A stretch of 64,000 nt of DNA, taken from NCBI GenBank assembly GCA_014360565.1, contig JACIXH010000001.1, forward strand, positions 1 to 64,000, read 5' to 3'. Both the position numbers and the translations under genes were made by a program. The notes under the pieces were generated by a model. It saw nothing but the letters and a program-made list of their open reading frames with translations. It was not told where the DNA came from and did no database searches. Origin of the DNA: Nocardia sp. (GTDB lineage Bacteria; Actinomycetota; Actinomycetes; Mycobacteriales; Mycobacteriaceae). Shown piece by piece: positions 36,320-56,212 of this stretch; within the stretch, counting starts at the first letter, position 1; the number at the start of each line of letters is the position of its first letter.

Positions 36320-36350
36320 TGGGATGCGCTGGTTCTGCGACGATTGATCG

Positions 36351-36968: not shown

Positions 36969-37006
36969 ACCGCGAACCCCCACCACGTCACGAAAGACCC
37001 TGTTCA

Positions 37007-37858
37007 GTGCTCAACGATGCCCACCTGTCGGACCTGCTCGGCACCTCAATAGAGACCGTCGTCGACCTCTGCGCACGACACTCCTGGACCCTGCACCGCG
37101 CTCTCACGAGCGACGGTCAGCAGATCTTCGTCAAGACCGCCGCCGACTGCGCGCCCGTTTTCGCTGCGGAGGCGGCCGGGCTGCGCTGGCTCGCGGCCGA
37201 GACCGAATCGAGCCCGGTGGCCGAAGTTCTCGCGGTCGACGACCGGATAATCGTGTTGCCCTGGCTGGCCCCGCAGGCGCCCACGGTCGATGCCGCACGA
37301 CGATTCGGCCGCGAACTGGCGACCATGCACTCCCGCTCGGCTGAGTTCTTCGGTGCTGGCTGGAACGGCTACATTGCCGACATCCCCCTCGACAACACGC
37401 GCTCCGGCCAACGGTGGGGACAGTGGTATGCCGAACGCCGATTGCTGCCATACCTTCGCATCGGCCACCAACACCTCGACCCTGCCGAGGTGCGGTTGGT
37501 CGAGAAGATCATCGCCAGCATCGATGCTCTCGCAGGTCCGGAGGAACCACCGGCCCGCATCCATGGCGACTTGTGGTCGGGCAACCTGTTGTGGAGCGCT
37601 GGGCGCGGTGTCCTGATCGACCCGGCGGCCCATGCTGGTCACCGCGAAACCGACCTCGCGATGCTCGCGTTGTTCGGCAACGACCACCTCGACAACATCC
37701 TCGACGGCTACACCGAGACCGTACCGTTGGCCGAGGGCTGGCGCGCCCGTATCCCCCTGCACCAACTCCATCCCCTGCTCGTGCACCTCGTGCTGTTCGG
37801 TGGCCGTTACCGACGCGCTCTAGTCAGGGCCGCGAATGCTGCTCTACGCGCTGGGTAG
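37007..37858 (+). CDS. Fructosamine/ketosamine-3-kinase family protein
   Basis: FVKT, RIHGDLWSGNLLWS, GVLIDPAAHAGHRETDLAML. Confidence 0.88.
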   Translation: MLNDAHLSDLLGTSIETVVDLCARHSWTLHRALTSDGQQIFVKTAADCAPVFAAEAAGLRWLAAETESSPVAEVLAVDDRIIVLPWLAPQAPTVDAARRFGRELATMHSRSAEFFGAGWNGYIADIPLDNTRSGQRWGQWYAERRLLPYLRIGHQHLDPAEVRLVEKIIASIDALAGPEEPPARIHGDLWSGNLLWSAGRGVLIDPAAHAGHRETDLAMLALFGNDHLDNILDGYTETVPLAEGWRARIPLHQLHPLLVHLVLFGGRYRRALVRAANAALRAG

Positions 37859-37938
37859 CCGGGCACTCGTCCGGCCGCCTGCGCGCCGACCGCGAAAATC
37901 AGTGGCAGCCAGATGATGCGCGGCACCAGGATGCTGGC

Positions 37939-38076
37939 ATGGCCAACGAGATGATCACCGACCACCGGATCATCTGGCGCGACCTTCCCGAACCGACGCG
38001 CGACGCTGTCGAAGAATGTGGCGGTGCGTGGCGCGCGAGCGACAACCCTTGGACAACTTCGCAGTCGAGTCGGTGA
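37939..38076 (+). pseudogene. Possible 5' remnant of a phosphotransferase gene
   Basis: 45-aa ORF with IIWRDLPEPTRDAVEECGG resembling the N-terminus of APH-family proteins, then loss of similarity. Confidence 0.35.
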
Positions 38077-38312
38077 ACATTCACAGGTCCAATCAGCTGA
38101 TCCAGCACCGGCGAATGTCGCCGTCATCGGTCCAGGGTTCGATCGCTTCCAAGGTCCCCCCGCAAGATTCGATGACGTATTGACTGAACTACCTTCATAA
38201 TCCTTGCAGGTCATCACAGGTTTCTGCTAGCTTTCCCCGCCATGCACGAAGAGGGTCCCGAGCGAGGTCTGTCGAGACTCGTTGTGCCCCCAGCGAAGCC
38301 CGCGTCGTGCTC

Positions 38313-39419
38313 CTAGCCAGTGGTCCATCGGGATAAGGGCCACTGGGGCGAATGGGGCGCGTCGGTCCATCGGGTCGGCAGGAGAACGGCGCGAGCGAAC
38401 TCCGGCGCGGAGGTGATGTTACTTGGCCAGTCCTGCGCCTCTGGGTAGGTGGGTATCCGAATCTGCGATGCGATCGAGGTTTCTCTTTTTTCGAAAACCA
38501 GCCGATTGCAGTTGTAGCAGAATTCGCGATTTAGGAACTTTGTCTCAGTCGAAGATAGTTCGAACGGGGGCTTGATCTTCACATTCTTGCGGCTCAAAAT
38601 TAAGAGTCGATTAGGGTTGATCGGAAATACGATTATCTCCGAGTTTCTAATCGAGACTGGAAACTGGCGAGTGTTTCGCTTCATTGGAATTCCGAGTACG
38701 GGTTCATCACAGGTCAATAGATCGTCTGTGGAGCTTGCCAGCCAGTAGTCTCGGTCGTTTTCAATCACCGGGGCGATAACGTTCTTCCAGGCACCGATGG
38801 CTGCATCGATTGCCTTGGGCTTAGTTTCGCTACTGACGGCCTGTTTGGCGAGTATCTGATTCACGATAGCCTGGTGTCTCGCTACTGAGTACTCAATGCC
38901 GTACTCGCGGCACAAGATCGGAAGCAGGCCGGGAATGTTCAGAAGATGGCGGGCTCCGTAGCGATTCACTGCCGCGTCGATGCCCAAGTCGGTCTGCCGC
39001 CCACGCTGGGTGCGCTGGCTTTGTAGACTGATGTATACGGCTAGGTTGGAGATAAGGTCTCTATGGTTGATTCTGCCGTCGGGCTGATCGTCCAGCGTGC
39101 GGAGCCAGCTCGCGGCCCGGTTTTCTATGCGTCCCATGTGGGTCTCGAACCACATATCTGGATTTGCGTCGGCATCGATGTCGGGTGCCGATATTTGATA
39201 GAAGTTGTCCTCGACGGCGGTCGATTCAATGGGTACGCACGTTGATTCTTTGGTGTCAACGTTTGTGACCTGAATTTCCCTGATTCCGTCGGTAGTCCAC
39301 CGCTTTAGGTACATTCTTGGCACGTAGTGGTGTCGGAATGTGGTTTGGGCGTTCTTACGGGTCTCTTCTTTGGATTTTTCGATCTCGACATCGGTTAGCC
39401 AACGATTGACTGTAGTCAC
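38313..39419 (-). CDS. DUF4238 domain-containing protein
   Basis: TFRHHYVPRMYLKRWTTDG N-term; DYWLASSTDDLLTCDEPVLGIP core. Confidence 0.8.
   Translation of the reverse strand: MTTVNRWLTDVEIEKSKEETRKNAQTTFRHHYVPRMYLKRWTTDGIREIQVTNVDTKESTCVPIESTAVEDNFYQISAPDIDADANPDMWFETHMGRIENRAASWLRTLDDQPDGRINHRDLISNLAVYISLQSQRTQRGRQTDLGIDAAVNRYGARHLLNIPGLLPILCREYGIEYSVARHQAIVNQILAKQAVSSETKPKAIDAAIGAWKNVIAPVIENDRDYWLASSTDDLLTCDEPVLGIPMKRNTRQFPVSIRNSEIIVFPINPNRLLILSRKNVKIKPPFELSSTETKFLNREFCYNCNRLVFEKRETSIASQIRIPTYPEAQDWPSNITSAPEFARAVLLPTRWTDAPHSPQWPLSRWTTG
38317..38346. terminator. Hairpin at the 3' end of the DUF4238 gene
   Basis: CCAGTGGTCC / GGGCCACTGG inverted repeat, 10-nt loop; overlaps the last codons. 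Confidence 0.4.
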
Positions 39420-39464
39420 AGTCTGTAGTGTAGGTGTAGGTCACGCAGCCGCGGGGAAGTCGAT

Positions 39465-40004
39465 TCAGCAGGGCGACGAACTCTGGCAGTCAGTTGAAGC
39501 CAGTTCAGAGAAGATCCGCCGCGATCCGATGTTCTTGTCGTCACAGGTGACCAGGATCCGGTCGATGCCGATCGACCGGGCAACAACGACGCTCTGCTGA
39601 AGAATGACGGTGCCGAGCCCACGGCGCCGGTACGCAGGTAGCACCCCGTACCCGATGTGCCCACCGCGGCGACGCAGGCCCTCGTTGAGGGTATGCCTGA
39701 TCGAGGTGCGCCCGACGATCCGACCGTCCACCGTCGCCACCAAGTACGTCGTGGCGACGATCCCCTCCCTCAATTTCATTCCGCGCCGTTCCTCCTCGCG
39801 GACAGTGTGGTAGTCCGACCAGCTCAAATCTGGTGCCAAATCCAGCGCGAAAGTGAAGCAGTCTTGCGCATCCATCACCTGGTGCGCTGGACGCACTTCC
39901 CCTTCGTCAGCAGTCTGCAACGGCCGTAGGCGAACCGACTCAAAAGTCGCAGGCAGTCCCGGCGCGGTCCGCTGGTGACCGTCTGACCTCATCTCATCGT
40001 TCAT
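39465..40004 (-). pseudogene. GNAT N-acetyltransferase, 3'-truncated
   Basis: GHIGYGVLPAYRRRGLGTVILQQSVVVARSIGIDRILVTCDDKNIGSRRI then abrupt loss of family sequence. Confidence 0.65.
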
Positions 40005-40104
40005 GAACCTGATCGTGACACTGCGACCCCGCTGGTGCCCACCGGTTTTCCGTGTGATCGGGCAGGCAGAACTGGTTCGGCGACCAACTCGCTGGGTCAG
40101 ACCA

Positions 40105-40602
40105 CTAGCGATCCCCGATGTCTCGGTAGATCCGGTCCGAAACAGCGTCGAGAGTCCAGCTCGCATCGATGCGGACTTCGTCGACGAACGGCAGCGGCTG
40201 CCATCCGTGATACCAGGAAGCCATCTGCTCCGGCGGAATCGTCGCCGCCTGAGGGCGCCCCGCGTGGCGGGTCAGGGTCTGCGCGAAGGTGAGATCGAAA
40301 CTGTAGAACAGCGACGTTCCGGCCGAGTCCGCGAGGCGTTCCAGCATGGTCCCGTACCGCTGGACGTGCAGGATTCCCTCGACGATCACCACCATCCCCC
40401 GCCCCAAACACGAACGGGCGATCTCCTCGATCAGATCGATGTTGAACGCGCCCGGCTCGTCCGCCTCGCGGATCATGTTCCGCCGCACCAGATCCTGGGA
40501 AACCACCGCGCACTGGCCCTGTTCGAATCGGCGCTGAACAGCGATCGCGGTGGTCGATTTACCCGATGCCGAGTTTCCACGGATCACTACCAACGGTGTC
40601 AT
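40105..40602 (-). CDS. P-loop kinase (zeta-toxin/AAA-like)
   Basis: VVIRGNSASGKSTTAIAVQRRF; ATGA overlap with the NUDIX gene. Confidence 0.82.
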   Translation of the reverse strand: MTPLVVIRGNSASGKSTTAIAVQRRFEQGQCAVVSQDLVRRNMIREADEPGAFNIDLIEEIARSCLGRGMVVIVEGILHVQRYGTMLERLADSAGTSLFYSFDLTFAQTLTRHAGRPQAATIPPEQMASWYHGWQPLPFVDEVRIDASWTLDAVSDRIYRDIGDR

Positions 40603-41174
40603 CGCACGGTCGTCGGCTGCAGGACGGTGTCGAGCTTGCGGATGAACCGGCCGAGGTGCGGGTCCGAATCAGGTAGCCCGTGGGGGTCGAGATCCCACCA
40701 CTCACCACCGTCGAATTCGCCCGGGTCGAGTTCATGACGACGGGCCCGCTCGCCACGGGCGACGAACCACAGCGAAACGTCCACGTGTCCGGTGGTGGGG
40801 CCGATGGTCGAAGTCACGGTCAGAAGCAGTGGCCGTTGGCCGACGACATCGAAGCTCGCGTCGATGCCCAGTTCCTCACGGGCTTCTCGGCGCGCTGCGG
40901 CGAACGGATGCTCGAAGGGATCTAGATGCCCGCCCATCGGGAGGTGAAGGCCGGACTTGCGGTGCCGACCGAGGTAAAGGCCACGCTCGGTGGGGTCGAC
41001 CAGGACCACATAGGCCACCAGGTGGGGCGAGGGCGTCGCAGGCGGAATGCGACGGTAGACATCGGTCGTCGCGGCGAGCCAGTCCAGGGTCTGTTCGATG
41101 TGTTGCTGCTCGAGATCGTCGAACGGGGTCATCGCGGAAATCAGTTCGGCGACGGCTGCGGTAGATGGATCCAT
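40599..41174 (-). CDS. NUDIX hydrolase
   Basis: GGHLDPFEHPFAAARREAREELGID Nudix box. Confidence 0.88.
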   Translation of the reverse strand: MDPSTAAVAELISAMTPFDDLEQQHIEQTLDWLAATTDVYRRIPPATPSPHLVAYVVLVDPTERGLYLGRHRKSGLHLPMGGHLDPFEHPFAAARREAREELGIDASFDVVGQRPLLLTVTSTIGPTTGHVDVSLWFVARGERARRHELDPGEFDGGEWWDLDPHGLPDSDPHLGRFIRKLDTVLQPTTVR

Positions 41175-41382: not shown

Positions 41383-42645
41383 ATGTTGGATAAGCGATTT
41401 GTCCGCGAGAACCCCGACGCGGTGAAGGAAGCCGCCAGTTCGAAGGGAGTCGCTGTCGATGTCGACGCACTCCTCTCTCTCGATGAGTCCGGGCGTTCCC
41501 TCCAGCATGATCTAGACAACGCCCAGGCCCGGCGCAACTCGATCTCCAAAGAGTTCGGCAAGGCCGACGCTGCAGGCAAAGACCAGCTCAGGGCGGAGAG
41601 CACCAAACTCGGCGACGAGATCTCGAAGCTCAAGGCCGACCTAGAGGTGAATCTGGCCGATCAGCGCGAGATCCTCCTGCGTCTGCCACAGATCCCTTGG
41701 TCGGGTGCGCCTATCGGTGCCGACGAATCAGCCAACACGGTCGTCCGGACTTGGGGCGCGCCACCTGAATTCGATTTCGAACCGCGTGATCATGTTGATC
41801 TGGCCGAGTCCCGGGGCTGGGTAGAGTTCGCGCGGGCGCGCAAGGTCGCTGGTGAGCGCGCCTATGCGCTGCGTGGTGATCTGATGCTGCTCGAGCGCGC
41901 GGTGCACTCCTACGCCCTGGATCTGCTCGTGCGGCAGGACTTCGTCCCGATCAGTGTTCCGGCTCTTGTTCGTGAGCAGGCACTTGTCGGGACGGGGATG
42001 TTCCCAGGCCATCGCGCCGAAACCTACGAGCTGCCAGCCGATGACACGTTCCTGGCTGGGACAGCGGAGGTGGCCTTGGTGGGCCTTCATTCCGACGAGA
42101 TCCTCGAGTTGCGTGACCTTCCGTTGAAGTATGCGGGGATGTCGCCGTGCTTCCGCCGCGAAGCGGGTTCCGCGGGCCGCGACGTGCGAGGCCTGCTGCG
42201 GGTGCACCAGTTCGAGAAGGTCGAGCAGTTCGTGATCTGCGAGGCTGACCCCGAGGAATCGGCGCGCTGGCACGCAGCGCTGCTGGCGAGTGCCGAGACT
42301 GTTCTCCAGGAACTGGGGCTTGCTTATGAGGTCGTCGAGTGCGCGACCGGAGACATGGGTTTGGGCAAGGTCAGGATGAACGACATCAACACCTGGTTGC
42401 CGAGCCTTGGCCAATACCGCGAAACGCACTCGTGCTCGACTCTGGGGACCTGGCAGGGTCGCCGCGCGAATCTGCGCTACCGCGACGCCGAGGGCAAGGT
42501 GCAGTTCGCCGCCACGCTCAACAACACCGCCGTGGCCACGCCGCGACTGCTGGCGGCACTGTTGGAGAACTTCCAGACCGCCGACGGCAAGATTGCGGTG
42601 CCGACGGTCCTTCAGCCCTACATGGGTGGCAGGGAACTGATCTGA
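41383..42645 (+). CDS. serS: Seryl-tRNA synthetase (probably accessory paralog)
   Basis: MLDKRFVRENPDAVKEA coiled-coil N-term; class II motif 2 SPCFRREAGSAGRDVRGLLRVHQFEKVE; motif 3 region LNNTAVATPRLLAALLENFQ. Confidence 0.93.
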   Translation: MLDKRFVRENPDAVKEAASSKGVAVDVDALLSLDESGRSLQHDLDNAQARRNSISKEFGKADAAGKDQLRAESTKLGDEISKLKADLEVNLADQREILLRLPQIPWSGAPIGADESANTVVRTWGAPPEFDFEPRDHVDLAESRGWVEFARARKVAGERAYALRGDLMLLERAVHSYALDLLVRQDFVPISVPALVREQALVGTGMFPGHRAETYELPADDTFLAGTAEVALVGLHSDEILELRDLPLKYAGMSPCFRREAGSAGRDVRGLLRVHQFEKVEQFVICEADPEESARWHAALLASAETVLQELGLAYEVVECATGDMGLGKVRMNDINTWLPSLGQYRETHSCSTLGTWQGRRANLRYRDAEGKVQFAATLNNTAVATPRLLAALLENFQTADGKIAVPTVLQPYMGGRELI

Positions 42646-43784
42646 AAAATCTGCTCTAGCACCACGCCCACTTGCCCGGTTGCGAGGACGAGTTCGGCGA
42701 TCGGAACGAACTCATTCGGTGAGTGGGCGTGGCGCAGGCTTCCGGGTCCGAATACGACAGCCGGAGTACCTGCGGGGCCGAAGAATCGGGCGTCTGAACC
42801 ACCCAGAAACTGCTCGGTGGCGACTTGCTGGCCGGTCTCCCGCTGTGCGTGCGCAAACGCGCGTGCCAGGTCGGTGTCGGTACCGATGAAATGGGAGTGA
42901 CAGCCTCCTCCTTGGTAGGCAGCGACAGCAATGCGTACTTTGTCGCTGCTCAAGCTGGCTGCCGCCGTGCGGTAGAGCTCGGCGATGTGATCGCGATCTT
43001 GGCTGGGCAGCACCCTGATGTCGGCACGCAGGACGCATTCGCCAGCGACAGTGCCGGGGTGACCTGGGATCTGCATATAGCCGACGTTGACGCGGGGATG
43101 GCCCGGAAAGTCGGGGTCGGTCGGCAGTTTCGCCACTAGTTCGTCGAGGGCGTCGATGTAGCTGGTCGCGGCGCGGAATGCGTCCGCGCCGTGTAGGGGG
43201 GTGCCGGCATGGGTCGTCCGCCCGGTGATGGTGACTTCGGCCCACGCGAGCCCGAGTTGCGCCAGCGAGGGTCTGCATCCGGTCGGCTCGCCGACGATTG
43301 CAGCGTCGGCGGTGAGTAGGCCGTGCTCGGCCAGTAGCTGTGCACCCCAGACGCTCCCGTCTTCTTCGTCAGCGACGCACTGCACGATCAATGTGCCGGA
43401 CCAGTCAGAGCGCGCGGCGAGAGTAGTTGCCGCGCAAAGGAACACCGCCATCGCGCCTTTGGTGTCGCAGGCGCCGACTCCGTAGAGGCGGTCTCCATCG
43501 ATGGCGGCAGCGAAGGGATCTGTATTCCACAGGTTGGTGCCGCCGACTGCGGTGGCGGGTTTGGTGTCGGCGTGTGCTTGCAGGATGACGCGCGGGCCTG
43601 GCCCGCGGCAGAGTGTGGCGATCAGGTTGGCCCGCAGTGGATCTTGTCCGATCCACTCGATGTCGAATCCGTGTGCGGTGAGCAGTTCTGCGACGTAGGC
43701 ACCGAGGATGGCTTCGTTGCCGGGCGGGTTTTGGGTGTCGATGCCGATCAGCGCACTGCACACGGCGGTGACGTCGAGGTTCAC
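42618..43784 (-). CDS. M20 family metallopeptidase (ArgE/DapE-like)
   Basis: VILQAHADTKPA, GVGACDTKGAMAVFL, QCVADEEDGS, IVGEPTG motifs. Confidence 0.9.
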   Translation of the reverse strand: MNLDVTAVCSALIGIDTQNPPGNEAILGAYVAELLTAHGFDIEWIGQDPLRANLIATLCRGPGPRVILQAHADTKPATAVGGTNLWNTDPFAAAIDGDRLYGVGACDTKGAMAVFLCAATTLAARSDWSGTLIVQCVADEEDGSVWGAQLLAEHGLLTADAAIVGEPTGCRPSLAQLGLAWAEVTITGRTTHAGTPLHGADAFRAATSYIDALDELVAKLPTDPDFPGHPRVNVGYMQIPGHPGTVAGECVLRADIRVLPSQDRDHIAELYRTAAASLSSDKVRIAVAAYQGGGCHSHFIGTDTDLARAFAHAQRETGQQVATEQFLGGSDARFFGPAGTPAVVFGPGSLRHAHSPNEFVPIAELVLATGQVGVVLEQIFQISSLPPM

Positions 43785-44065
43785 GTGTTCTCCTGGTCGA
43801 CGTGGGCATGGCGGTGTTCACGGCGCAGATCGGCGACGGGAACACCGGTCGGGCACACGCTGTGGCAGTCGCCGCATTCGAGGCATCGCGCCAGGTACGT
43901 GGCTGCAACAGGGTCGGGTGTTGATGTTGGGTTGGCCATGAGGTTTATACGGCCGCGGGGGGAATCGCCCTCGTCGTGGGTTTCGAGCCAGGTGGGGCAG
44001 CTCGGAAGGCAGAGTCCGCAGTTGGTGCACTGGGCGATCGTTTTCCACCAGGTGGCGTCGGTCAT
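43781..44065 (-). CDS. Short (Fe-S)-binding protein, GlcF N-terminal-like, 2x[4Fe-4S]
   Basis: CTNCGLCLPSCP and CLECGDCHSVCP; ATGA overlap with the upstream gene. Confidence 0.8.
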   Translation of the reverse strand: MTDATWWKTIAQCTNCGLCLPSCPTWLETHDEGDSPRGRINLMANPTSTPDPVAATYLARCLECGDCHSVCPTGVPVADLRREHRHAHVDQENT

Positions 44066-46290
44066 GGTCTTCCACAGGGGGTGTGGAGCGCTTCGGAGAG
44101 GGCGCGGCCCATGGGTGTTGTTGTGGCGGTCGACGGCGCGGTCGTCCACAGACGGCGTTGCCCTATCGACAGGTACTGCGGAGTTGTCGAGTCGGTGCGC
44201 AGTGCGTGGTCTAGGTCGGCCCACCGGTGGATGCGTCGGCCGGTGATGTCGGCGCCCGCGAAGGCGAACATGGGTGGGTCTGCCCAGATCGGTTCGGTTT
44301 TCGCCTGCATGGTCGGGGCGAGCTCGGACATTGTTGCCACCGCGCGTGCGACGGTGTGCCCGCGGACTTCCAATCGCCCGACGAGTTGGACCACGCCATC
44401 GGTGCCGACGAGGATCCCCAGGTGTGCGAACGGCAGCGCTGCAGCGCGTAGCCGGGTCAATACCGCTAACGCGTCGGTGACCGACCTCGTTGGCACGACG
44501 ACGCTGCAGGCATCGGTGACAGCGGGTAAGAGTCGTAACCGCGCGCCGGTTAACCTCGCTCTGCCTCGGTTGCCGAAAGCCAATGCACGCAAGGGATATC
44601 CGGCAACGTCCTTGGTGACCGCGCCGCCGAAGAGTTCGCCGTCGAGTTCGGCGGCGATGATGAGGTCGCGGGCTCGGAAGGGGTGCGGTTCGCGGAGTCC
44701 TGGCCGCGCGGTGTCGATCGCGGCCAGGATCGGCTCGTCTGGACGGCCGCCGAGAGGTTCGTAGGTCAGCTCGTAAGGGCTGTTCGCCAGCAGTTTCTCC
44801 GCGTCGGCGAAAGTGGTGTGTGGCCCGATATCGAGGTAGGCGTCGATGCGGTGGACCTGTCCGGGGTGCAGCGGGAGCACATCGGTTACCGTCTGTGGGT
44901 GGTGGTCGTCGGGTGGGCGTGGTGGGAGTAGCTTTCCGGGGTTGGACAGCCCGCGCGGGTCGAACACCGCCTTGATCGTGTGCATCGCCTCGAGGGCTGC
45001 GGGGGTGTAGAACTCGGTCATCAGGTCCCGTTTTTCCGACCCGATGCCGTGTTCGCCCGACAGAGCCCCGCCCAAGGCTGCGCAGTCGCGCAGGATCCGG
45101 GTAGAGAACGCGGCGAGCACTTCGTCCATTCCGGGTCCGGGCGTGAAAAAGGGTGTGGGATGGACGTTTCCGTCTCCGGCGTGGAATGTGTTGAGGACCG
45201 GCAGCCCGAAGTGGTCGGCGGCCTCGGTGATCGCGTTCATGAGTTCGGGTAGTCGTGAGCGGGGTGCGGTGGCGTCGAACAGGTAGTAGCGAGGATGTCC
45301 ACTGTCTGCGACCATCCGTCGAACTTTGCCTTTGACGAGTTCGGCTCGGCGGCCAAGGTATTCGGCCGCTCGGAATTGGCTGTAGTCGCCGCCGGTGGCT
45401 TCGATGCAGGTCTGCAGGATTTGTAGTCCGGTGTCGACCTCCTCGGGTTGGCCTTGAAGGTGCACGAACAGCAAGGACGGGTCCGTGTGATCGGGGCGGC
45501 CGGGGATGTAGGCGCCGGTGAGCATGTCCATCGCCGAGGGCAGCATCCCGGCGTCGAATACGTTCATCACCGCGGCGACTGCGGCCTGCGGGTCGTCGAA
45601 GCGTGCGATCACCGCGTGCTGGCTCGGCGAAGCAGGCAGCAGTCGCAGTGTGACTGCTGCGACCACACCGAGGGTGGCTTCGGAGCCGACGACCAGCGCG
45701 ACGAGATCGAGGTTGCCGTCATAGACGTCGTGCTCGTCGAGGATCGCGACGCTGCCGTCGGGACCGATCAGTTCGACGCTGATGACGTGGTTGGCTGTCG
45801 ATCCACCTCCGAGTGCGTGTGGGCCACCAGCGTTTTCGGCGATGTTGCCTCCGATCGTGCACACCTGATGCGAGGACGGATCGGGCACGTACCGCCAGCC
45901 CGCCGCTGCGGCGCGTTCGTGGATGCGGGCCAGGGTGACGCCTGGTTCGCACCGAATCCACCCAACGTCGAAGTCCTCGTCGAGGATGCGGTTGAGGTCG
46001 CGTGTCAAGATCACCATCCCGCCGTTCGCGGGCAACGCCCCGCCGCTGTAACCGGTACCCGCTCCTCGTGGCACGAACGCCACGCCGTGCTGGTACGCGG
46101 CGGCGACGAGGGCGGCGAGCTGATCGCGATTCGACGGGGCGGCAACGAGATCGGCGGATCCGACCTCCATGGATGCGTCGTATCCGTGGAGCAGGCGGTG
46201 TGTGGCGTCGGTTGCTACCCGGTCGGGGCCCACGATGGACACGGCGTGCTCGCGCAGTGCTGCAAGGGCGCTGCGATCGGCCCAGCTCAT
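44062..46290 (-). CDS. FAD-linked oxidase, GlcD-GlcE-type fusion
   Basis: PRGAGTGYSGGALP, VCTIGGNIAENAGGPHALGGGST, SGEHGIGSEKRDLM, FDPRGLSNPGKLLP (GlcD), followed by a GlcE-like region (AELDGELFGGAVTKDVAGYPLRALAFG). Start set at MSWADRS (46290). Confidence 0.85.
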   Translation of the reverse strand: MSWADRSALAALREHAVSIVGPDRVATDATHRLLHGYDASMEVGSADLVAAPSNRDQLAALVAAAYQHGVAFVPRGAGTGYSGGALPANGGMVILTRDLNRILDEDFDVGWIRCEPGVTLARIHERAAAAGWRYVPDPSSHQVCTIGGNIAENAGGPHALGGGSTANHVISVELIGPDGSVAILDEHDVYDGNLDLVALVVGSEATLGVVAAVTLRLLPASPSQHAVIARFDDPQAAVAAVMNVFDAGMLPSAMDMLTGAYIPGRPDHTDPSLLFVHLQGQPEEVDTGLQILQTCIEATGGDYSQFRAAEYLGRRAELVKGKVRRMVADSGHPRYYLFDATAPRSRLPELMNAITEAADHFGLPVLNTFHAGDGNVHPTPFFTPGPGMDEVLAAFSTRILRDCAALGGALSGEHGIGSEKRDLMTEFYTPAALEAMHTIKAVFDPRGLSNPGKLLPPRPPDDHHPQTVTDVLPLHPGQVHRIDAYLDIGPHTTFADAEKLLANSPYELTYEPLGGRPDEPILAAIDTARPGLREPHPFRARDLIIAAELDGELFGGAVTKDVAGYPLRALAFGNRGRARLTGARLRLLPAVTDACSVVVPTRSVTDALAVLTRLRAAALPFAHLGILVGTDGVVQLVGRLEVRGHTVARAVATMSELAPTMQAKTEPIWADPPMFAFAGADITGRRIHRWADLDHALRTDSTTPQYLSIGQRRLWTTAPSTATTTPMGRALSEALHTPCGRP

Positions 46291-47348
46291 GGCATGGCCT
46301 TGGTGAGGGTTTGTGGTTGGCCGCTGGACAGTGCGGTGATGGCGGCGTGGCAGGTTTCCATCACATCGAGGACCTGCGACAGCGGTACTCGGTCGCTGTC
46401 GCGTCCGTCGGCGACGCAGTCGGTGATGTGTTGCAGTTCGCTGACGAGGGCACCCTGGCGAGCACCGCCGTACCGGGGCCACAGCCACATTTCAGGCGCG
46501 CTGGCCTGCGCGGTGGTCCATGCGTGGATCACCGGTTCGCTGCGCAATGTCCATGTGCCCTCGGCTGCTTGGATCGTTGCGTCGAAGGTGAATCCGAACG
46601 GGCATGTGGACGCGAGGTGCCACGAGTTCTGGATGACCGCCCGCAGTGGGCCCCATTCCAAGACGAGGTCGATGCAGTCGGGATGCTCGTGGCCCAGCAG
46701 GTGGGATCCGTAGGCACTGACTCGCTCTGGTGCGCGCCCGACAAGCCAGACGGCGATGTCGATGTCGTGCACGGCCGCGTTGAGCACGGGGTGTGTGCGC
46801 CCGTAGACCTGGTGCGCCACGCTCTGGAAGGTCCGCGCGAACGACAGATGTCGCAGCGTCGACCCGGCGACCATCTCTGACAACGCTATGTAGCGGGGGT
46901 CGAAACGCAGCACTTGTGCCACGTAGAGGTGTCGGTCCCGGGCTCGGGCCAATTCGACAAGCTCGTGTGCGGCGGCGGGGTCGAGGGCGATCGGCTTCTC
47001 GACCACAACGTCGGCACCAGCTTCGAGTGCGGTGCGGATACACCACTCGTGCTCGGACTCGGTGGTTACCACGTCGACGAGGTCCACCCCTGCCGCGAGC
47101 ATGTCCTGCAGTTTCTCGTAGCGGGCGACGCCAGCTGGGATCGGGCGGCGACCGCCACTTCCGGCGTCGCTGTGAAACGCTTCCTGCGGCGCATCACCGA
47201 CATCGGCCATCGCGGCAGGATCACGATCGCACACCGCGACCACGGTGGCGCCGCGTACCGACGACCACGCGTCGAGGTGGGTGCGGCCGAACCATCCCAT
47301 CCCGACCACGCCGACACGCAACGGTCGCGGGGCGTTGTTGTTGATCAT
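46287..47348 (-). CDS. Gfo/Idh/MocA family oxidoreductase
   Basis: VGVVGMGWFGRTHLDAW Rossmann motif; VVVEKPIALD; HDIDIAVWLVG. Confidence 0.88.
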   Translation of the reverse strand: MINNNAPRPLRVGVVGMGWFGRTHLDAWSSVRGATVVAVCDRDPAAMADVGDAPQEAFHSDAGSGGRRPIPAGVARYEKLQDMLAAGVDLVDVVTTESEHEWCIRTALEAGADVVVEKPIALDPAAAHELVELARARDRHLYVAQVLRFDPRYIALSEMVAGSTLRHLSFARTFQSVAHQVYGRTHPVLNAAVHDIDIAVWLVGRAPERVSAYGSHLLGHEHPDCIDLVLEWGPLRAVIQNSWHLASTCPFGFTFDATIQAAEGTWTLRSEPVIHAWTTAQASAPEMWLWPRYGGARQGALVSELQHITDCVADGRDSDRVPLSQVLDVMETCHAAITALSSGQPQTLTKAMP

Positions 47349-47375
47349 GGTGCCTCCGGAGGGTGCTCGGTAAGG

Positions 47376-48314
47376 TCAGACGAAGGCATCGACGCGGGTG
47401 AAGTCGTTGTCGGGCAGCAGTTCACGCGCAATCGGCAGATATTGTTCCCATGCCCATTGCCAGACTTGCTGGGCTTGCAACCATGCCTGCTCGGCCTCGC
47501 CGACGCTCAGGAGGTCCTGGTTGCGCAAATCTTTGAGGTCGGTGACGGTGTCGGCGACTGCGACGGCGTCCGGGCCGAAACGGTCGTTCAAGAACTCGCG
47601 GGCCGCGACTGCCCAATCGGCGAGCAGTTCCATGTGCATGCCTGCGCTGAGTTCGCTGTCGGTCAGCTTCAGGGCCAAAGCGTCCTTGATGGCTTCTTCG
47701 GCGTAGCGCGCCGACTCCTCGACGAGTATCTGCGGCCGTTCGTACCAGGCCAGCGCCCAGGGCAGGTGATCTAGGATGTTGCGGTAGTGCGAGAGCGCTC
47801 GGTGCACGGTGCGCGCCCATTCACCGGTCCGGCGAGGATGCGGTGCGAGGAGAAGTACATCGGCTGGGTCGCCGTTGAGCATGCGGAATGCCCTGCACCA
47901 GCCCGGTCCGATGGTCGGGGGCAGCCGATAGCGGTTGGTGTCATGGTCGCCCTCGAGGACTTTGGTGGTCAAGGAGACCAGCCGCTGCGCAGCCTCGGTG
48001 GTGGGGCGATGAGACACCGTGTACGGGTGGCAGTCCACCAGCAACTCCCACCCTTGTTCGGCCAAGGCCTCGCGTTGGGTCTGCCAGCTTCGCGCCAGTT
48101 CCAGCCGCAACGCATTGCCACGATCGCCGACGGCGATGAAGTAGAGGTTCAGGCTGGGGCGTTGGCGGTTCCAGTGTCCTGCGACGAAGGACCCGGTGAC
48201 GAAACTGGCGCGCACCAGGTCTGGGTGGGTGCGGGCGAGTTGTTCTGCTGTGGTGCACAAGTCGGTGAGGACTTGCTCGGATTCCTGCTCGAGCTGGGTG
48301 TTGTCGAGATTCAT
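47376..48314 (-). CDS. Uncharacterised protein, weakly nucleotidyltransferase-like
   Basis: ASFVTGSFVAGHWNRQRPSLNLYFI resembles a degenerate GS..G..D.DL motif; 312 aa in operon. Confidence 0.55.
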   Translation of the reverse strand: MNLDNTQLEQESEQVLTDLCTTAEQLARTHPDLVRASFVTGSFVAGHWNRQRPSLNLYFIAVGDRGNALRLELARSWQTQREALAEQGWELLVDCHPYTVSHRPTTEAAQRLVSLTTKVLEGDHDTNRYRLPPTIGPGWCRAFRMLNGDPADVLLLAPHPRRTGEWARTVHRALSHYRNILDHLPWALAWYERPQILVEESARYAEEAIKDALALKLTDSELSAGMHMELLADWAVAAREFLNDRFGPDAVAVADTVTDLKDLRNQDLLSVGEAEQAWLQAQQVWQWAWEQYLPIARELLPDNDFTRVDAFV

Positions 48315-48342
48315 GGTGTCCCCTTCGCTGAAATGGTGGTGT

Positions 48343-49245
48343 CTAGCCGTGCTGTGCGCGGGTGAGGTAGTAGGAGGGCGCTCGTGTGCGGCGGCGGGTG
48401 GTGATGTCGTCGAATTCGGGTAAGTCGGCCCATCCGGTCGCCGGGCTCGCTCCGATCAGCTCCGCCAATTGCGGTGCCATCGTCTTGATCTCGTCGGCGG
48501 TAAACACCCGCGCGTAATCCTCCTGCGGGCGCATGTACATCCGTGCGAACAGCGTCGAGATCGTCAGGCGCACACCGGGTTCGGTGCGTGGGTAGGCGCC
48601 GTGCCAGGTGTTGCCGTGGAAGATGATCGCCGCGCCTGCCGGAGCGAGTACGGGGATGGCGTCCCGGGTTCCCTGCCCCTCGCGGGGTCGGTGGCAGAAC
48701 CTGTGACTGCCCGGCACGATCGACAAACACCCGTTGGCTTCGGTGTAGTCCGTGAGGCAGTAGTTGATGTTGGCGATCTGGGCATAGGGCGGAAGTGGAT
48801 CGGGGACGTAGGCGGTGTCGGAGTGGATTCCCAGCGCGCACAGGCCGGGACCTTTCACGTATCCGGTGACGCTGCTGAGCTGGCGCTGTGCGCCGAGTAG
48901 GTAGGTGATCAGCAGCAGGGTGCGCGTGCCAAGCACCAGTTCCTGGAACGGTGCGCCTCCGCGCGACAACAGCAATGGAACCTCTTGTGTGCGGTCACGG
49001 TGGCAACCGCCGGACTCGGTGTCGACCGGCGCGTCGTCGGCTGCGGCGCAGGCGAGGAGTTGTTCGGTCAGCTCGGAGCGCAGGTCTGGTTCGAGTGCGT
49101 CGGGAATGACGGTGTAGCCCAAAGCTTCCAGTTCCAGCGCGTGGGAGAGTAAGCCGTGATCGGTGAGCTGTTGGTGCATCTCTGCCACGCCGGCGGTGAT
49201 GAACGGATAGTGCGCTCCCCCTGGTGATGACGTGGCATCAGACAC
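48343..49245 (-). CDS. Phytanoyl-CoA dioxygenase (PhyH) family Fe(II)/2OG oxygenase
   Basis: GIHSDTAYVPDPLPPYAQIANINYCLTDYTEANGCLSIVPGSH ... WHGAYPRTEPGVRLTI. GTG start at 49245 preceded by GGAGG. Confidence 0.85.
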   Translation of the reverse strand: MSDATSSPGGAHYPFITAGVAEMHQQLTDHGLLSHALELEALGYTVIPDALEPDLRSELTEQLLACAAADDAPVDTESGGCHRDRTQEVPLLLSRGGAPFQELVLGTRTLLLITYLLGAQRQLSSVTGYVKGPGLCALGIHSDTAYVPDPLPPYAQIANINYCLTDYTEANGCLSIVPGSHRFCHRPREGQGTRDAIPVLAPAGAAIIFHGNTWHGAYPRTEPGVRLTISTLFARMYMRPQEDYARVFTADEIKTMAPQLAELIGASPATGWADLPEFDDITTRRRTRAPSYYLTRAQHG

Positions 49246-50108
49246 TTTGAGCCTCCGGTGTCGAGGAGTTCGGCCGGTCCGGTATCCATGCGCCATCGCC
49301 CCACGCGTTGCGGTTGGTCGCTGCGGCGCGCAGCGCCAGGTCTTGCGCGCGCATCAGCGCCCCGACGGCGCTGGCGCCACCACAGCGCCGCCGGTGCCAA
49401 GTCAGGGCGTTGTCCAGCGCCGCAGCTTCGACTGGGCGAAGCTGTCGCAGCCGATTCCATCCCGCGCGTGCGTAGCTTCTGGCCCCGCCACTGCGCGTAG
49501 CTCGTTGGCGATGCCACCTGCACCTGTGCGTCGGCGACGTAGTCGATGCGAGCCCCGTGATCGTGGGCAGACAGGCCCACTGAGACGTCGTCGAGCACCG
49601 GTATCAGCGGGTTCTCGGCAGGGAATATGTTGCGGCGCAGACCGTACATTGCTCCTGGCAGCGCCCACCGCAGCTCGGGGTGCGCGCTGCGGCAGGCGTG
49701 CCACGTGTCGAAAGTGATCTCGGACCACCGATGCAGTAACGCCGGATCGCCCGGCCTCGGCGGGGACAGAATCAGGTGGCCTGCTGCGACGTCTGCGCCG
49801 TCGTCCAGGGCCGAAACCAGATATCCGAACGCAGACGGGGCAACTAGGACGTCGGCGTCGAGGAATACCAGATAGTCGCTGTGGGACGCCCTCACGCCAC
49901 GGCGCAGGGCAGTGTATTTGCCCGCAACCGCAACAGTCGCCCATCGGATTCTGCCCGGCGGCAGCGCGAGTCCGGTGAAGTCAGATCCCTCGGGGACGAC
50001 AACGACCAATTCTGCGTTGACGCATTCTGCGGCGGCGATGGTGTGCGGCAAAGTGATCGGCAAGGTCGATTCCTCACCTCGCGCGGGCACGACGACGGTC
50101 ACGGTCAT
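49238..50108 (-). pseudogene. Family 2 glycosyltransferase with apparent frameshift (around 49461-49475)
   Basis: MTVTVVVPARGEESTLPITL...DYLVFLDADVLV...VLDDVSVGL in one frame; shifting +1 restores RAGWNRLRQLRPVEAAALDNALTWHRR...STPEAQSV* ending at the PhyH start. Confidence 0.75.
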
Positions 50109-50275
50109 GATGCACTCCGTTCGGGAAAGCGAACCGGCAGCACCCGCTGCCCCAATGTGTGTTTGCTCCAGCAGATCCGCGAAACTGCTGAACAAATTAT
50201 GTTGTCGGACAACCTTTTTGGGACCCGCGGCGTACCCTGCTGAGAATTCTGAATTGTTGACGAAAGGTGATCGGC

Positions 50276-51214
50276 ATGGAAGTTGCGCTCCTCATCGACA
50301 GCGAAACGGGCACCACAGCCAAGGACTGGCTTCGCGTGGCCGCCCATATCGACGGCACCGCCGTGACGGCTCTGCTGCGTTCGGACCACCTCACAGGCCC
50401 TGCCCCGTCTGGCCAGGACTGCCTGGACGCATGGACTGCCTGTACTGCGGCCGCAGCCACCACACACACCGTCGGGTTGGGAACACTGGTGTCGCCGATC
50501 ACCTTCCGGCATCCTGCGATCCTGGCAAAGACCGTCGCCAGCACGAGCGCGTTCGCTGGCGATCGCCGCTTGGACGTCGGAATCGGCATCGGGTGGAACA
50601 CATACGAGCACCGCAGCGTGGGCCTCGCGCTCCTCGACACGACCACTCGCTACCGGATGATGGTCGAGTACATCGCCGTGCTGCGAGGCCTCTGGAGTGG
50701 GTTGCCGTTCTCCTACGACGGCGAATTCTTCACCGCCGATGACGCGCAACTTCACCCCGTCCCAGCCCGTCCGCCGCGGATCATCGTCGGCAAGCGAGGC
50801 CGTCAACGCTCCCTCGAACTGGCGGTACGCACGGCAGACGAATACAACTTCGTGTTCCAGCCACCTGCGGCGTGCGCGAGAGTCCACCAGCGCTTGACCG
50901 AGATCGCCGACAAATGCGATCAAGCACCACCACGGCTGTCGGTGATGACCGACTGCATCATCGGAGCAGACGCGCGCCACATCAACGCCCAGCTTGCAGA
51001 CGCCGCCACCCGATACCCGATGCTGCGCGGCGCAACCCACTCCACGCTGCCCGCGCCGTACCTGGCGACTACACCGGAAGCGCTCGTCGACACCATCGAG
51101 GCATACGCGAATGCCGGCGTGGACCGGATGATCCTCAAGCACCCCAATCCCGCAGACCTGAGCAGCATCGACCTGCTCATCAATTCCGTGCTGCCCTACG
51201 TGAAGAAAGGCTGA
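50276..51214 (+). CDS. LLM-class (luciferase-like) flavin-dependent oxidoreductase
   Basis: VGLGTLVSPITFRHPAILAKTVAS, RLDVGIGIGWN, YRMMVEYIAVLRGLW. Confidence 0.88.
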   Translation: MEVALLIDSETGTTAKDWLRVAAHIDGTAVTALLRSDHLTGPAPSGQDCLDAWTACTAAAATTHTVGLGTLVSPITFRHPAILAKTVASTSAFAGDRRLDVGIGIGWNTYEHRSVGLALLDTTTRYRMMVEYIAVLRGLWSGLPFSYDGEFFTADDAQLHPVPARPPRIIVGKRGRQRSLELAVRTADEYNFVFQPPAACARVHQRLTEIADKCDQAPPRLSVMTDCIIGADARHINAQLADAATRYPMLRGATHSTLPAPYLATTPEALVDTIEAYANAGVDRMILKHPNPADLSSIDLLINSVLPYVKKG

Positions 51215-51218
51215 GACC

Positions 51219-52142
51219 ATGGCACATGTTCTCGTTACCGGCGCACTGGGCACCCTCGGTCGCGCCACGACCGCACAGCTGATCCGAGACGGACACAAGG
51301 TCACCTCCCTCGACAACCGGCCCGCCCCAGACGCGTGGGCGCCACACCATGTCGTCGCCGACATCAGAGACCCCCAGCAATATCGGACCACGCTCGCCGA
51401 CTGCGAAGCGCTGGTCCACCTGGCCAGCCTGCACGGGCGAGACCATATGGCGCGCTTCGGATTCAACGACTTCTGGTCGGTCAACGTCGACGGCACGCTG
51501 GCGCTGTACCGGGCCCTGAAAGAGTCCGCCGTGTCGCAGGTCGTACTGGCCAGCTCGATGGCGGTGTACGGACCGATCCCCTCAGCCCCACGCTCTGCAT
51601 GGGAGATTCGCGACGAATCCATGTCAACGACCTCCTACGATGCCTACTCGCTGACCAAGCTGACCAGCGAATCCATCGCCGAATACACCCTGGCCGACGC
51701 CGGAATCCTCACCACAGTGCTGAGACTTGGGCATTTCACCCCTGCCGGGCTGTTGCACCACGGCTTTCGCCTGCTGTTCGGTGGCCTCGACATCCGCGAC
51801 GCTGCGGCAGCAGTGGCAGCCGCGCTCTCGCGGCCACCGGTCGGGACCAACCGCCATCTCAACATCCACGCCGCGTCGCCGCTGCCAAACCGCATCGACA
51901 CGCTTCGCGACGCACCGACAGCGGTACTCGAAGAGTTGTTCCCGCAGTTCATGTCGACGCTCGCCGAGCGCGGCGAAGACCCGGTGGCACACCTGTGGGG
52001 CCGATCGGCGTGGCCAATCGTGCACGCTGCGAACGAGATTGGATATGCCCCCGCCTATGACTTCGACAGATTCGCCAGCGACTTCCTGCGGGGGGACCTC
52101 TCCGGCTACCGATGGCTGGAGTTGCCTCGATGGGGAATCTGA
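51219..52142 (+). CDS. NAD-dependent epimerase/dehydratase (extended SDR)
   Basis: VLVTGALGTLGRATTAQL; SSMAVYG; YDAYSLTK. Confidence 0.9.
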   Translation: MAHVLVTGALGTLGRATTAQLIRDGHKVTSLDNRPAPDAWAPHHVVADIRDPQQYRTTLADCEALVHLASLHGRDHMARFGFNDFWSVNVDGTLALYRALKESAVSQVVLASSMAVYGPIPSAPRSAWEIRDESMSTTSYDAYSLTKLTSESIAEYTLADAGILTTVLRLGHFTPAGLLHHGFRLLFGGLDIRDAAAAVAAALSRPPVGTNRHLNIHAASPLPNRIDTLRDAPTAVLEELFPQFMSTLAERGEDPVAHLWGRSAWPIVHAANEIGYAPAYDFDRFASDFLRGDLSGYRWLELPRWGI

Positions 52143-52409
52143 TCGCAAGTTCGCATAGGTCCTCGTCGCCGACAATGCCTGCATCCGCGCGACCTCCCAT
52201 GTAGCTGGACGCGGGCCCAATTACTAAGGGCCACATCGTTGTTGGTTTGCCCAGGGTCACCGATCCGGGCACACCGAAGTAAGACGCGTCACAGGTTGGC
52301 TCGGCTAGGGCAGGACCGACTAGCCGAGCTAGTCGGTTCTCGCGGTCTTCACCGCGATCGTTAGCGAACCCAGGCTCGCCGGTCCTATCGTCGATCTGAC
52401 CGTGCCTCG

Positions 52410-53834
52410 ATGTGCGACCAGGAGTCGATGATGAACGTCGATGACAACCCGAAAATGCCGATAGCAGCGGAGGTCTGGGAGCGCCCGGATATGCGCACGG
52501 CCTTGGCCAACCACGACTTCGCGACGGTCTACTTCCTGCTGCACAGACAACTCAAGGTCTCGCAGCGTGATATCAGCCGACGGACCGGCCAGAGTGGCTC
52601 CGAGATATACGAGATCATGAAGGAAGGCCGCCAGGTCAACTCCTACAAACTCCTCATCCGCATCGCAGACGGACTCGGAATCCCTCGCGGCTACGTAGGA
52701 CTGGCCAGTGACCCGCTCCCGAAACCGAGCACACCGGGCAGCAGTGACGACGAGCACCACGACATTCAAGCCTTCCTCGACTACGCCGCCCAGCTCACAG
52801 TCGCACCCAACGACGGCCTGCCAGCGCAGGCTGCGGCGCCCCCGGAGCTCATCACCGCGCCGGCGCCCCGCCACGTCGGCGGAAGTGATGTCGCTCAACT
52901 GGTCGTCATGACAGCGGCGATGCGTCGTCTCGACTATCAGTTCGGTGGCGGTGCGTATCGCGACGCTGTCGCTGCCCAAGCACAGTGGGCTGAACAGTTG
53001 GTGCACGCACAAAGCGACGACAACACCGAACGGGCGCTACTCACCGCAGTCGCCGACCTACACAACCTTGCAGGGTGGGTTTCTTTCGACGTCGGCATGC
53101 ACCGTGCCGCGCGCAGCCACTTCCGGCGAGCGTTGGCCGTAGCTCACGGGGCGGACGACCCCACGCTCTCGGCGAACATCCTCTACCGCGCCGGACGATT
53201 GCACCTGCACCGCGGAACTCAACGCGTTGACCGGGGCCCCACTGAACGAAATGGACCGGACTACTTTCGTGTGGCCCTGAGGCTGTTCCAGCTCGGACAA
53301 GTACAGGCCCAAGACGCTGGTTGCGCACTCACCAGCGCGGTGCTCTGTGCCAATGCTGGATGGGCCTATGCGCTATTGGGGGAACGCCAACCCATGTTGC
53401 GGGCACTCGGACGGGCTGAAGACGAATTTGCCCGCGCAGACCCCGGGCGGGCGCCAGGTTGGGTCCGATTCTTCGGCGAGGCAGACCTCAGCGCATCTCA
53501 AGGCGTAGCGCTCACCGCACAGCCGACACCCACACCTGACGACCTCCGAATCGGAATCGCGCGCCTCGGTGACGCGATCGGCCGACGCGGAGCAGACTCC
53601 CAACGCTCTCGCTGCTTTGAACTAACAGCGCTCGCCGTTGCGCACCTGCAGGATGGCCCCAACGAGATCGCTATCCACACCGCCCGGATTGCGGTCGAGA
53701 CTGCGCAAATGGTCAGGTCCTCACGCATCATCGACCGGCTCACACCCATTCTGCGTTACGCCCACAAACACCCGAAGAATTCAGACCTTCAGCAGGTCGC
53801 CAACGACATCCGCTTCATGAGGCAAACGACATGA
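52410..53834 (+). CDS. XRE-family regulator with TPR-like C-terminal region
   Basis: VSQRDISRRTGQSGSEIYEIMKEGRQVNSYKLLIRIADGLGIPRGYVGLA HTH; helical-repeat C-term. Confidence 0.85.
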   Translation: MCDQESMMNVDDNPKMPIAAEVWERPDMRTALANHDFATVYFLLHRQLKVSQRDISRRTGQSGSEIYEIMKEGRQVNSYKLLIRIADGLGIPRGYVGLASDPLPKPSTPGSSDDEHHDIQAFLDYAAQLTVAPNDGLPAQAAAPPELITAPAPRHVGGSDVAQLVVMTAAMRRLDYQFGGGAYRDAVAAQAQWAEQLVHAQSDDNTERALLTAVADLHNLAGWVSFDVGMHRAARSHFRRALAVAHGADDPTLSANILYRAGRLHLHRGTQRVDRGPTERNGPDYFRVALRLFQLGQVQAQDAGCALTSAVLCANAGWAYALLGERQPMLRALGRAEDEFARADPGRAPGWVRFFGEADLSASQGVALTAQPTPTPDDLRIGIARLGDAIGRRGADSQRSRCFELTALAVAHLQDGPNEIAIHTARIAVETAQMVRSSRIIDRLTPILRYAHKHPKNSDLQQVANDIRFMRQTT

Positions 53835-54745
53835 CAAAGTCAGCGAACCCCACCCCGCCAGCCACCGCCGAGCAGAGCTGGGCGCACACGATCCTCCGCA
53901 CCGCGTGCGACAGTGTCGGACTGGACAGCCACGGCGCTCACCTGATCAAATTCACCAACAACGCGGTCTTCCAACTGGCCAAGGACCCATTCGTCGTCCG
54001 CATCGCCGGTTCACAAGCAGTGAACGCCAGGGCCACCAAAGTTGTGCAAGTCGCGCGATGGTTCGCCAAACAGGAGGTGCCGGCCGTCCGCCTAGTCGAC
54101 TCGCTCCCCCAACCGCACACTATCGACAAGCATGCAGTGACCTTCTGGCACACCGTCGCAAGCATTCGCGGCGCTCCAGCGCCCAACGGTCAAGACCTCG
54201 GCAAAATCCTGTCCTGTATCCACCAGCTCCCACGAACGGAGCTGCCGATGTGGGACCCGTTCACCGAGATTCAGCGCAGACTCGACCAGCAGTCGATCCT
54301 GGCAGTCGACGAGCTCGCCTTCCTCCGTGACGAATGCGCCGAGTTGTTCTCGGCTGTAGGTGAACTCGACTATGCCCTGCCGGGCGGACTCATCCACGGA
54401 GACGCGTTCGTCGGCAACCTCGTGCAGGGCCGAGGAGATCCAGTGATCTGCGATTTCGATTCGACATGTATCGGGCCACGCGAATGGGACCTCACGCCGG
54501 TCGCTGTAGGTGCCCTCCGCTTCACCTATCCCGAGAACTACCACAACCAGCTAGTTCATACCTACGGATGGGACGTGACACGATGGTCCGGATTCGCGAC
54601 ACTGCGTCGGCTACGTGAACTACAGCTCGTGACGAGCGTCCTTCCCGTTCTCGATATGAACCCGTCTTTGAAGGAGCAGTGGCAGTGGCGATTCTCCTCT
54701 TATCGGCACCGCGACATGTCGGCACGCTGGCAGCCGTACCAGTGA
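53831..54745 (+). CDS. Aminoglycoside phosphotransferase-family protein
   Basis: GGLIHGDAFVGNLVQGRGDPVICDFDSTCIGPREWDLTPVA; ATGA overlap with the regulator. Confidence 0.87.
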   Translation: MTKSANPTPPATAEQSWAHTILRTACDSVGLDSHGAHLIKFTNNAVFQLAKDPFVVRIAGSQAVNARATKVVQVARWFAKQEVPAVRLVDSLPQPHTIDKHAVTFWHTVASIRGAPAPNGQDLGKILSCIHQLPRTELPMWDPFTEIQRRLDQQSILAVDELAFLRDECAELFSAVGELDYALPGGLIHGDAFVGNLVQGRGDPVICDFDSTCIGPREWDLTPVAVGALRFTYPENYHNQLVHTYGWDVTRWSGFATLRRLRELQLVTSVLPVLDMNPSLKEQWQWRFSSYRHRDMSARWQPYQ

Positions 54746-55140: not shown

Positions 55141-55156
55141 TACATTTCTCGCCGTG
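55141..55156 (+). promoter_or_regulatory. Candidate leaderless promoter (-10 TACATT, 7 nt, GTG start)
   Basis: TACATT-TCTCGCC-GTG; same arrangement at 9478-9493 (TACATT-GCCCGCC-GTG). Confidence 0.5.
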
Positions 55157-56212
55157 ATCATCGTTCGACCCGGAACACGAGGTACTGACCCTCACCAGCT
55201 CTGCCTACACCCAGAAGCGGTGTGGCCGAGTAGGTATCGATCCAGAGAGGCTCGCAAGGACATCGCGGCCTGGATCGCTGCCGCCAACAGCGACGACGTG
55301 CTCTCAGCGTTCCTCTGGGCCGTCGAAGGCCATTTCGTGAAGGAAGCGCTCGATGGCGTCAATGGTGAGGTCAAGTGGATCGAGGACGTGCGAGACGAGC
55401 TGGCCGATCTTCAACGTTCCTCCAAGCCTTTCGACTTGGAGTGGCAGTACACCCGCCGAGAGATCGACACCGCAATGCGCAGCTTGATGGTCACCGTTGC
55501 GCAGGCTCTCAAACGATGCCGCGAGATCGCCACCAAAGTATCGGAGAACTTCCGCGAGCTGGCCGACCGTTTCGGCATGCCTCCGGGGGATTGCTTCCAG
55601 GCCGCTCTTGACGGAGAGTCTCCGACACAGTCGGCGTACAACCAAATGGATGAATGTCTCAAACTGACTGACGAACTCAAAAGAACCATCAAAGAATTCA
55701 AAGCCACGCAGGCTACCGTGCGCGACATCGACAGCAGGCGAGCGGCCTTCGCTTCGTCAAATAATAGCATCGATGACCGGGAGCTGCAGCGCTGTGACGG
55801 GTCAGGCTTCGAAGAAATCACGGCCTGGGTACTACAACGGGATGGACTCACCATCCTCCGGCGCGGCGGCGGCGCTCGCGACCATGGTGCCGACATTATC
55901 GCCTTGACACCTGCTGGCCGCCGGGTCGTCGTGCAATGCAAGTTTCGGCAAGGCAAGCCGATCGGCCCCGACGTCGTCTATCAGGTCAACGGTACAGCCC
56001 GTCCATTCCACAAGGCCGACATTCCTATCATTGTCACGACAACCTCATTCTCGGCGCAGGCGACCGAATTTGCATTGTCGCAAGACATTTACCTCGTCGA
56101 CGAATGGCGCCTCCGCAAGTGGGCGACATGGGGTGAGAGCATATTCGACGTTCTGGGAATCGCAGAACCAGTCGAAGGTAACGACCCAGCCGTAGAACCA
56201 GGTGCAGCCTGA
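55154..56212 (+). CDS. Mrr-like restriction endonuclease with coiled-coil N-terminal region
   Basis: GSGFEEITAWVLQRDGLTILRRGGGARDHGADIIALTPAGRRVVVQCKFR (PD-(D/E)XK with QxK). Confidence 0.88.
   Translation: MIIVRPGTRGTDPHQLCLHPEAVWPSRYRSREARKDIAAWIAAANSDDVLSAFLWAVEGHFVKEALDGVNGEVKWIEDVRDELADLQRSSKPFDLEWQYTRREIDTAMRSLMVTVAQALKRCREIATKVSENFRELADRFGMPPGDCFQAALDGESPTQSAYNQMDECLKLTDELKRTIKEFKATQATVRDIDSRRAAFASSNNSIDDRELQRCDGSGFEEITAWVLQRDGLTILRRGGGARDHGADIIALTPAGRRVVVQCKFRQGKPIGPDVVYQVNGTARPFHKADIPIIVTTTSFSAQATEFALSQDIYLVDEWRLRKWATWGESIFDVLGIAEPVEGNDPAVEPGAA

Follow-up and report, generated by a model that had tools for sequence, protein, structure and literature searches.

The closest described parallels to the locus considered here come from two natural product clusters that encode a seryl-tRNA synthetase (SerRS) of their own and, for a part of its enzymatic content, from the glycolate oxidase GlcDEF. 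In the albomycin (abm) system, the cluster-borne SerRS2, AbmK, confers albomycin resistance and also contributes to the biosynthesis, while the defining enzymes are a PLP transaldolase and an epimerase, the radical SAM enzyme AbmJ and AbmF (PMC9032320). In the valanimycin (vlm) system, the SerRS VlmL has a seryl-donor role, and VlmA (PF09924) and VlmH constitute the defining pair (PMC9379638).

The locus analyzed here lies at 41383–54745 of a 64,000-nucleotide stretch of a Nocardia sp. genome (henceforth the window; assembly GCA_014360565.1, contig JACIXH010000001.1, positions 1 to 64,000), which is itself part of a 130.5-kb contig. Like the abm cluster, it carries a divergent second SerRS, with the housekeeping copy encoded elsewhere; however, the thionucleoside enzymes AbmH, AbmD, AbmF and AbmJ are absent from its core, which lacks PLP and radical SAM domains as well as a further domain of the aminoacyl-tRNA synthetase type. 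Like the vlm cluster, whose product is small and amino-acid-derived, it contains an extra SerRS, but a scan of ten of its proteins at E 0.01 turned up no VlmA (PF09924), and no VlmH/VlmR-type pair could be recognized. With GlcDEF it shares the GlcD and GlcE parts and a GlcF-like 4Fe-4S domain, the difference being that GlcD and GlcE here form one chain and that the Fe-S protein, at ~96 residues, covers the N-terminal ~75 residues of the GlcF model. The original prediction recognized no known cluster of this content, in keeping with the open literature searched (MIBiG and subscription papers fell outside its scope), where only work on albomycin and azoxy compounds was encountered.

Architecture of the locus and its surroundings

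Based on open reading frames and profile matches, all the genes named in the original prediction are present at the positions given to them. Corrections concern the glycosyltransferase gene, which is frameshifted, the regulator, which belongs to the NsdA family, and, as detailed below, the nucleotidyltransferase-like label and the extent of the conserved unit. The plus-strand gene for the second SerRS (SerRS2, of the Frankia type; 41383–42645; TIGR00414, 429 bits) converges with that of an ArgE/DapE-like M20 metallohydrolase with metal and catalytic motifs (42618–43784, minus strand; PF01546), overlapping its end by 28 bases. Read along the minus strand from 50108 to 42618, the M20 gene is the last of a series whose members overlap or almost touch their neighbors. 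This series starts with a family 2 glycosyltransferase (GT2; ~49238–50108; PF13641), followed by a PhyH-type Fe(II)/2-oxoglutarate oxygenase of uncertain start (~48343–49245; PF05721, with an HxD motif at 140), an orphan protein whose weak fold matches hint at a possible nucleotidyltransferase-like fold (p47376; 47376–48314) and a Gfo/Idh/MocA NAD(P)-dependent dehydrogenase (46287–47348; PF01408). Then come a GlcD-GlcE fusion of the FAD-linked D-2-hydroxyacid dehydrogenase family (44062–46293; PF01565 and PF02913; 305 bits against TIGR00387, under that model's cut-off) and a short GlcF-like protein that matches Fer4 profiles and displays two 4Fe-4S motifs of the form CxxCxxCxxxC (~43781–44071, with the longest reading frame starting at 44224).

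A gap at 50109–50275, assigned to neither strand and presumed from the gene layout to be the promoter region, separates the GT2 start at 50108 from plus-strand genes that begin at 50276. The first two of these code for an LLM flavin oxidoreductase (50276–51214; PF00296; 158 bits against TIGR03560, under that model's cut-off) and an SDR of the NAD-dependent epimerase/dehydratase family (51219–52142; PF01370), and are followed by an NsdA-family TPR-like regulator (52410–53834; NF053720, 238 bits versus a cut-off of 75) and an APH-type phosphotransferase whose gene overlaps that of the regulator (53831–54745; PF01636). The layout thus bears out the divergent start that had been proposed at 50108/50276. 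Profile searches of the encoded proteins revealed no NRPS/PKS gene within 41383–54745 and no recognizable exporter among the core genes.

The wider window offers observations of its own. A BREX-type phage-defense locus occupies 10740–28260, with strong PADLOC matches for BrxHI, BrxD, PglZ, BrxC/PglY and PglX, and a 1374-codon reading frame at 24136–28260 adjoins these genes. Next, 28576–35472 holds small reading frames and then one of 1845 codons ending near 35231, which together resemble, by sequence, a locus for a secreted polymorphic toxin. The interval 35654–41174, flanking the SerRS2 gene, codes for two Nudix proteins, two AAA-type kinases and a fructosamine-kinase-like protein. On the other side, a protein with an Mrr-type restriction endonuclease domain (55154–56212) adjoins the APH gene.

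Conservation of the eight-gene unit and its orphan protein

The original prediction had staked itself beforehand on co-conservation of these genes, and for the core genes the comparison came out in its favor. All eight genes from 41383 to 50108 occur together, in the same order and orientation and at 49–72% protein identity, in the complete genome G1120 from a different family of the same order (f2, probably Pseudonocardiaceae), with the SerRS gene convergent there too. The individual identities are 70% for SerRS, 58% for M20, 59% for the Fe-S protein, 72% and 49% for two stretches of GlcDE, 62% for Gfo/Idh/MocA, about 60–61% for p47376, 59% for PhyH and 49% for GT2 (residues 1–215). Judged by the sequences, an eight-gene order kept across two families at such identities is not a matter of chance, and for the six genes with estimates, a dN of 0.25–0.48 against a dS of 0.93–1.13 points to purifying selection. 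A search with PhyH among 241 genomes of this family gave one match at 58%, that of G1120 itself, the next best being at 35% (E 2.6e-34). G1120 is the one intact independent relative of the cassette found; its GlcDE gene is frameshifted in that assembly, which may be a sequencing error. A further complete genome, G1045, is 99.94% identical to the window genome over 79 kb, evidently belongs to the same species, and was for this reason rejected as independent evidence.

The LLM, SDR, regulator and APH genes (50276–54745) have no homolog in a 60-kb stretch of G1120. Thus, the notion of one compact cluster holds for 41383–50108, which constitutes the conserved unit, and the other four genes are best seen as neighbors outside this core. 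The description "without NRPS/PKS" likewise stands for the interval 41383–54745, but it is perhaps not true of the whole cluster family, because in G1120 the block has A, C-PCP and KS genes adjoining it upstream (the first A domain was identified by eye). This block is directly preceded by an AMP-ligase gene and a P450-like gene (the latter read by eye); further upstream are genes for a MupA-type LLM protein, a heme-oxygenase-family protein, an acyl-CoA dehydrogenase and a 3HCDH, along with KSIII-type genes. The stretch at 2734.5–2757.9 kb of G1120 contig C1 (L182-L183), with A, C-PCP, KS, 3HCDH and ACP among its components, looks like an uncharacterized NRPS/PKS-type cluster.

A partial counterpart is seen in an Actinophytocola MAG, on a contig (L077) that stops just past GT2: it has SerRS, most of PhyH (60–62%) and a part of GT2, with the PhyH and GT2 genes adjoining each other and converging with that of SerRS. 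This copy looks degraded, since GT2 runs directly into PhyH with the intervening stretch missing and a His replaces the SerRS Arg corresponding to position 386 of the Thermus thermophilus enzyme. The rest of the cassette was not found in this genome, where GlcDE-like matches reach 38% at most, save for one short stretch at 41%. Two further kinds of matches were set aside, namely PhyH homologs of ~30% identity in other Actinobacteria and plasmids, which have no cassette around them, and plasmid matches to GlcDE, Gfo and SDR, which are generic.

The distribution of p47376 is patchy, as with horizontally acquired clusters, and the cassette was probably acquired in this way. Among 152 genomes of the genus it is confined to this species, the other carrier (1/151) being the conspecific G1045. 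No true relative was recovered from the other genomes of the family and class samples, the genus-g52 sample, the 22 genomes of family f22 or plasmids, nor did genome contigs yield a match to exact 8-residue patterns, an insensitive scan. Weak matches at 25–31% to parts of residues 108–274, within reading frames of 2,500–4,600 codons, were judged to be chance. The protein fits no Pfam, NCBIfam or PADLOC family, and no PDB entry matches it by sequence. Its identification as VlmA was rejected, as VlmA is a PF09924 protein and p47376 has no match to that family; a role in defense likewise drew no support from PADLOC.

Structure prediction from the single sequence gave an unusable model (mean pLDDT 40), and a two-sequence AlphaFold model reached a mean pLDDT of 54, the first 120 residues faring better. 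The best Foldseek hit of the low-confidence model had an E-value of 0.027 and a probability of 0.41. The best matches (E 0.03 or worse) were MNT antitoxins and AadA-type adenylyltransferases, and a GS motif is present at 41–42; however, the usual Asp-x-Asp pair of nucleotidyltransferases is missing from both p47376 and its G1120 homolog, with PSLN following the GS. No profile backs the label "nucleotidyltransferase-like" given to p47376 in the original prediction; as the fold matches are weak and the GS motif lacks the Asp pair, it is to be treated as a lead rather than a result.

The second SerRS and the proposed role of the cassette

SerRS2 is one of two SerRS in the window genome and is 41% identical to the housekeeping copy, whose gene shows 85% DNA identity to that of N. 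farcinica. It also occurs as a second copy in G1045, G1120, the Actinophytocola MAG and N. amamiensis, and a scan of genome contigs yielded matches at 60–72% in Frankia and other actinomycetes. In a 54-row tree, SerRS2 falls within a Frankia-type clade (support 100/99) and is separated from the housekeeping enzymes of Pseudonocardiaceae and of the window genome itself. The copies associated with clusters are not monophyletic, that of the window standing apart from the others within the Frankia-type clade. In two Frankia genomes, one Nocardioides genome and one perhaps incomplete Pseudonocardiales MAG, no SerRS other than the Frankia type was found, and 13 of the 13 active-site positions checked in SerRS2 match the T. 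thermophilus enzyme. As far as can be read from phylogeny and active-site residues, SerRS2 looks as a functional replacement synthetase of foreign origin would be expected to look, and such a divergent second copy of foreign type, on which the original prediction did not remark, is the strongest functional clue at the locus.

The same type of synthetase turned up in other settings. In N. amamiensis (G1111 contig 80, L080 7709–15230), the second SerRS lies beside a TauD-like dioxygenase, an SDR and a methyltransferase (by eye), with an AspRS-like gene upstream, perhaps forming another SerRS2-bearing cluster; homologs of one Nudix protein (59%) and one kinase (50%) from the flank of the Nocardia cassette lie less than 27 kb from it. 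A Sphingomonas MAG (L111 10001–11260) has a SerRS that is 56% identical to SerRS2 and falls just outside the actinobacterial Frankia-type clade, possibly through transfer or a binning error.

We propose, with a probability of roughly 55%, that 41383–50108 is a biosynthetic cassette for a small oxidized metabolite, or a part thereof, that acts on SerRS, with SerRS2 providing self-resistance. From the gene content we infer the reactions, target, resistance role and product as follows. Oxidations would be carried out by the Gfo/Idh/MocA dehydrogenase, the FAD-dependent GlcD-GlcE protein together with the two-cluster ferredoxin, and the Fe(II)/2OG-dependent PhyH oxygenase; the M20 enzyme would remove an acyl group or cleave an amide, GT2 would attach a sugar, and p47376 may bind nucleotides or similar substrates. 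With the housekeeping SerRS blocked by the product, SerRS2 would keep up the supply of seryl-tRNA. Three oxidizing systems, combined with an enzyme for amide hydrolysis, a glycosyltransferase and a possible nucleotide binder, suggest a small oxidized product built on a sugar or hydroxyacid, and the neighboring NsdA-family regulator was counted in favor of a biosynthetic reading. The GT2 frameshift, the single intact relative (with its own GlcDE frameshift), the failure of the window's SerRS2 to group with the other cluster-associated copies and the want of a recognized exporter among the core genes count against this explanation.

Of the competing possibilities, the one that survives best, though we consider it unlikely, is that SerRS2 is mainly biosynthetic, supplying Ser-tRNA or Ser-AMP from which p47376 or another cassette protein would transfer the seryl group to an acceptor derived from a sugar or hydroxyacid. 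Published precedents exist in the pairing of VlmL with VlmA for valanimycin (PMC9379638) and of AbmK with AbmF for albomycin (PMC9032320). Moreover, both G1120 and the Actinophytocola MAG retain SerRS2 at the side of the cassette, and no role is assigned to the conserved orphan p47376. However, Ser-tRNA could come from the housekeeping SerRS, and neither a VlmA-type protein (PF09924) nor any other known aminoacyl-tRNA transferase is found in the ten scanned core and neighbor proteins. Self-resistance is ranked higher because SerRS2 is of a foreign type able to sustain translation, is encoded on its own strand apart from the operon, and has no known seryl transferase alongside it.

The frameshift raises the prospect, which we regard as rather doubtful, that a true biosynthetic cassette has become defunct in this Nocardia species. 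The GT2 frame changes near 49465, with the last ~70 codons lying in another frame; against the intact GT2 of G1120 as a reference, the protein aligns in one frame up to "RTR" and in another over its C-terminal part. Since there is no indel between the two assemblies at this point, the frameshift is present in both the window genome and G1045, and the Actinophytocola copy, being clearly degraded, would offer a parallel. Against this, the remaining seven core genes have open frames and retain their motifs, and GT2 itself is intact over residues 1–216, including the DxD motif. Finally, a catabolic cassette for the uptake or salvage of an acylated sugar acid or glycoside, beside which SerRS2 lies by accident, is improbable: the GlcD, Gfo/Idh/MocA and M20 families are frequent in catabolism and the nearest non-cassette PhyH homologs share operons with genes for SDR and CoA-transferase-like proteins, but SerRS2 stays with the block in three lineages, profile searches of the core revealed neither a transporter nor a CoA-linked enzyme, GT2 is ill-suited to degradation, and the G1120 block adjoins NRPS/PKS-type genes.

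Implications for putatively SerRS-directed metabolites

Natural SerRS inhibitors are, to our knowledge, few, and albomycin was the one to surface in the literature searched. A bolder extension of the self-resistance reading, to which we attach a low chance, is that the cassette produces, without NRPS/PKS, a SerRS inhibitor of a new structural class, with p47376 founding a new enzyme family, e.g., as a seryl transferase with a nucleotidyltransferase-like fold that would act as the partner of SerRS2. The cluster suits resistance-guided discovery, as its likely target is named beforehand and the cassette, at ~9 kb, could be expressed whole. Moreover, p47376 would represent a new protein family, whose role is open to testing.
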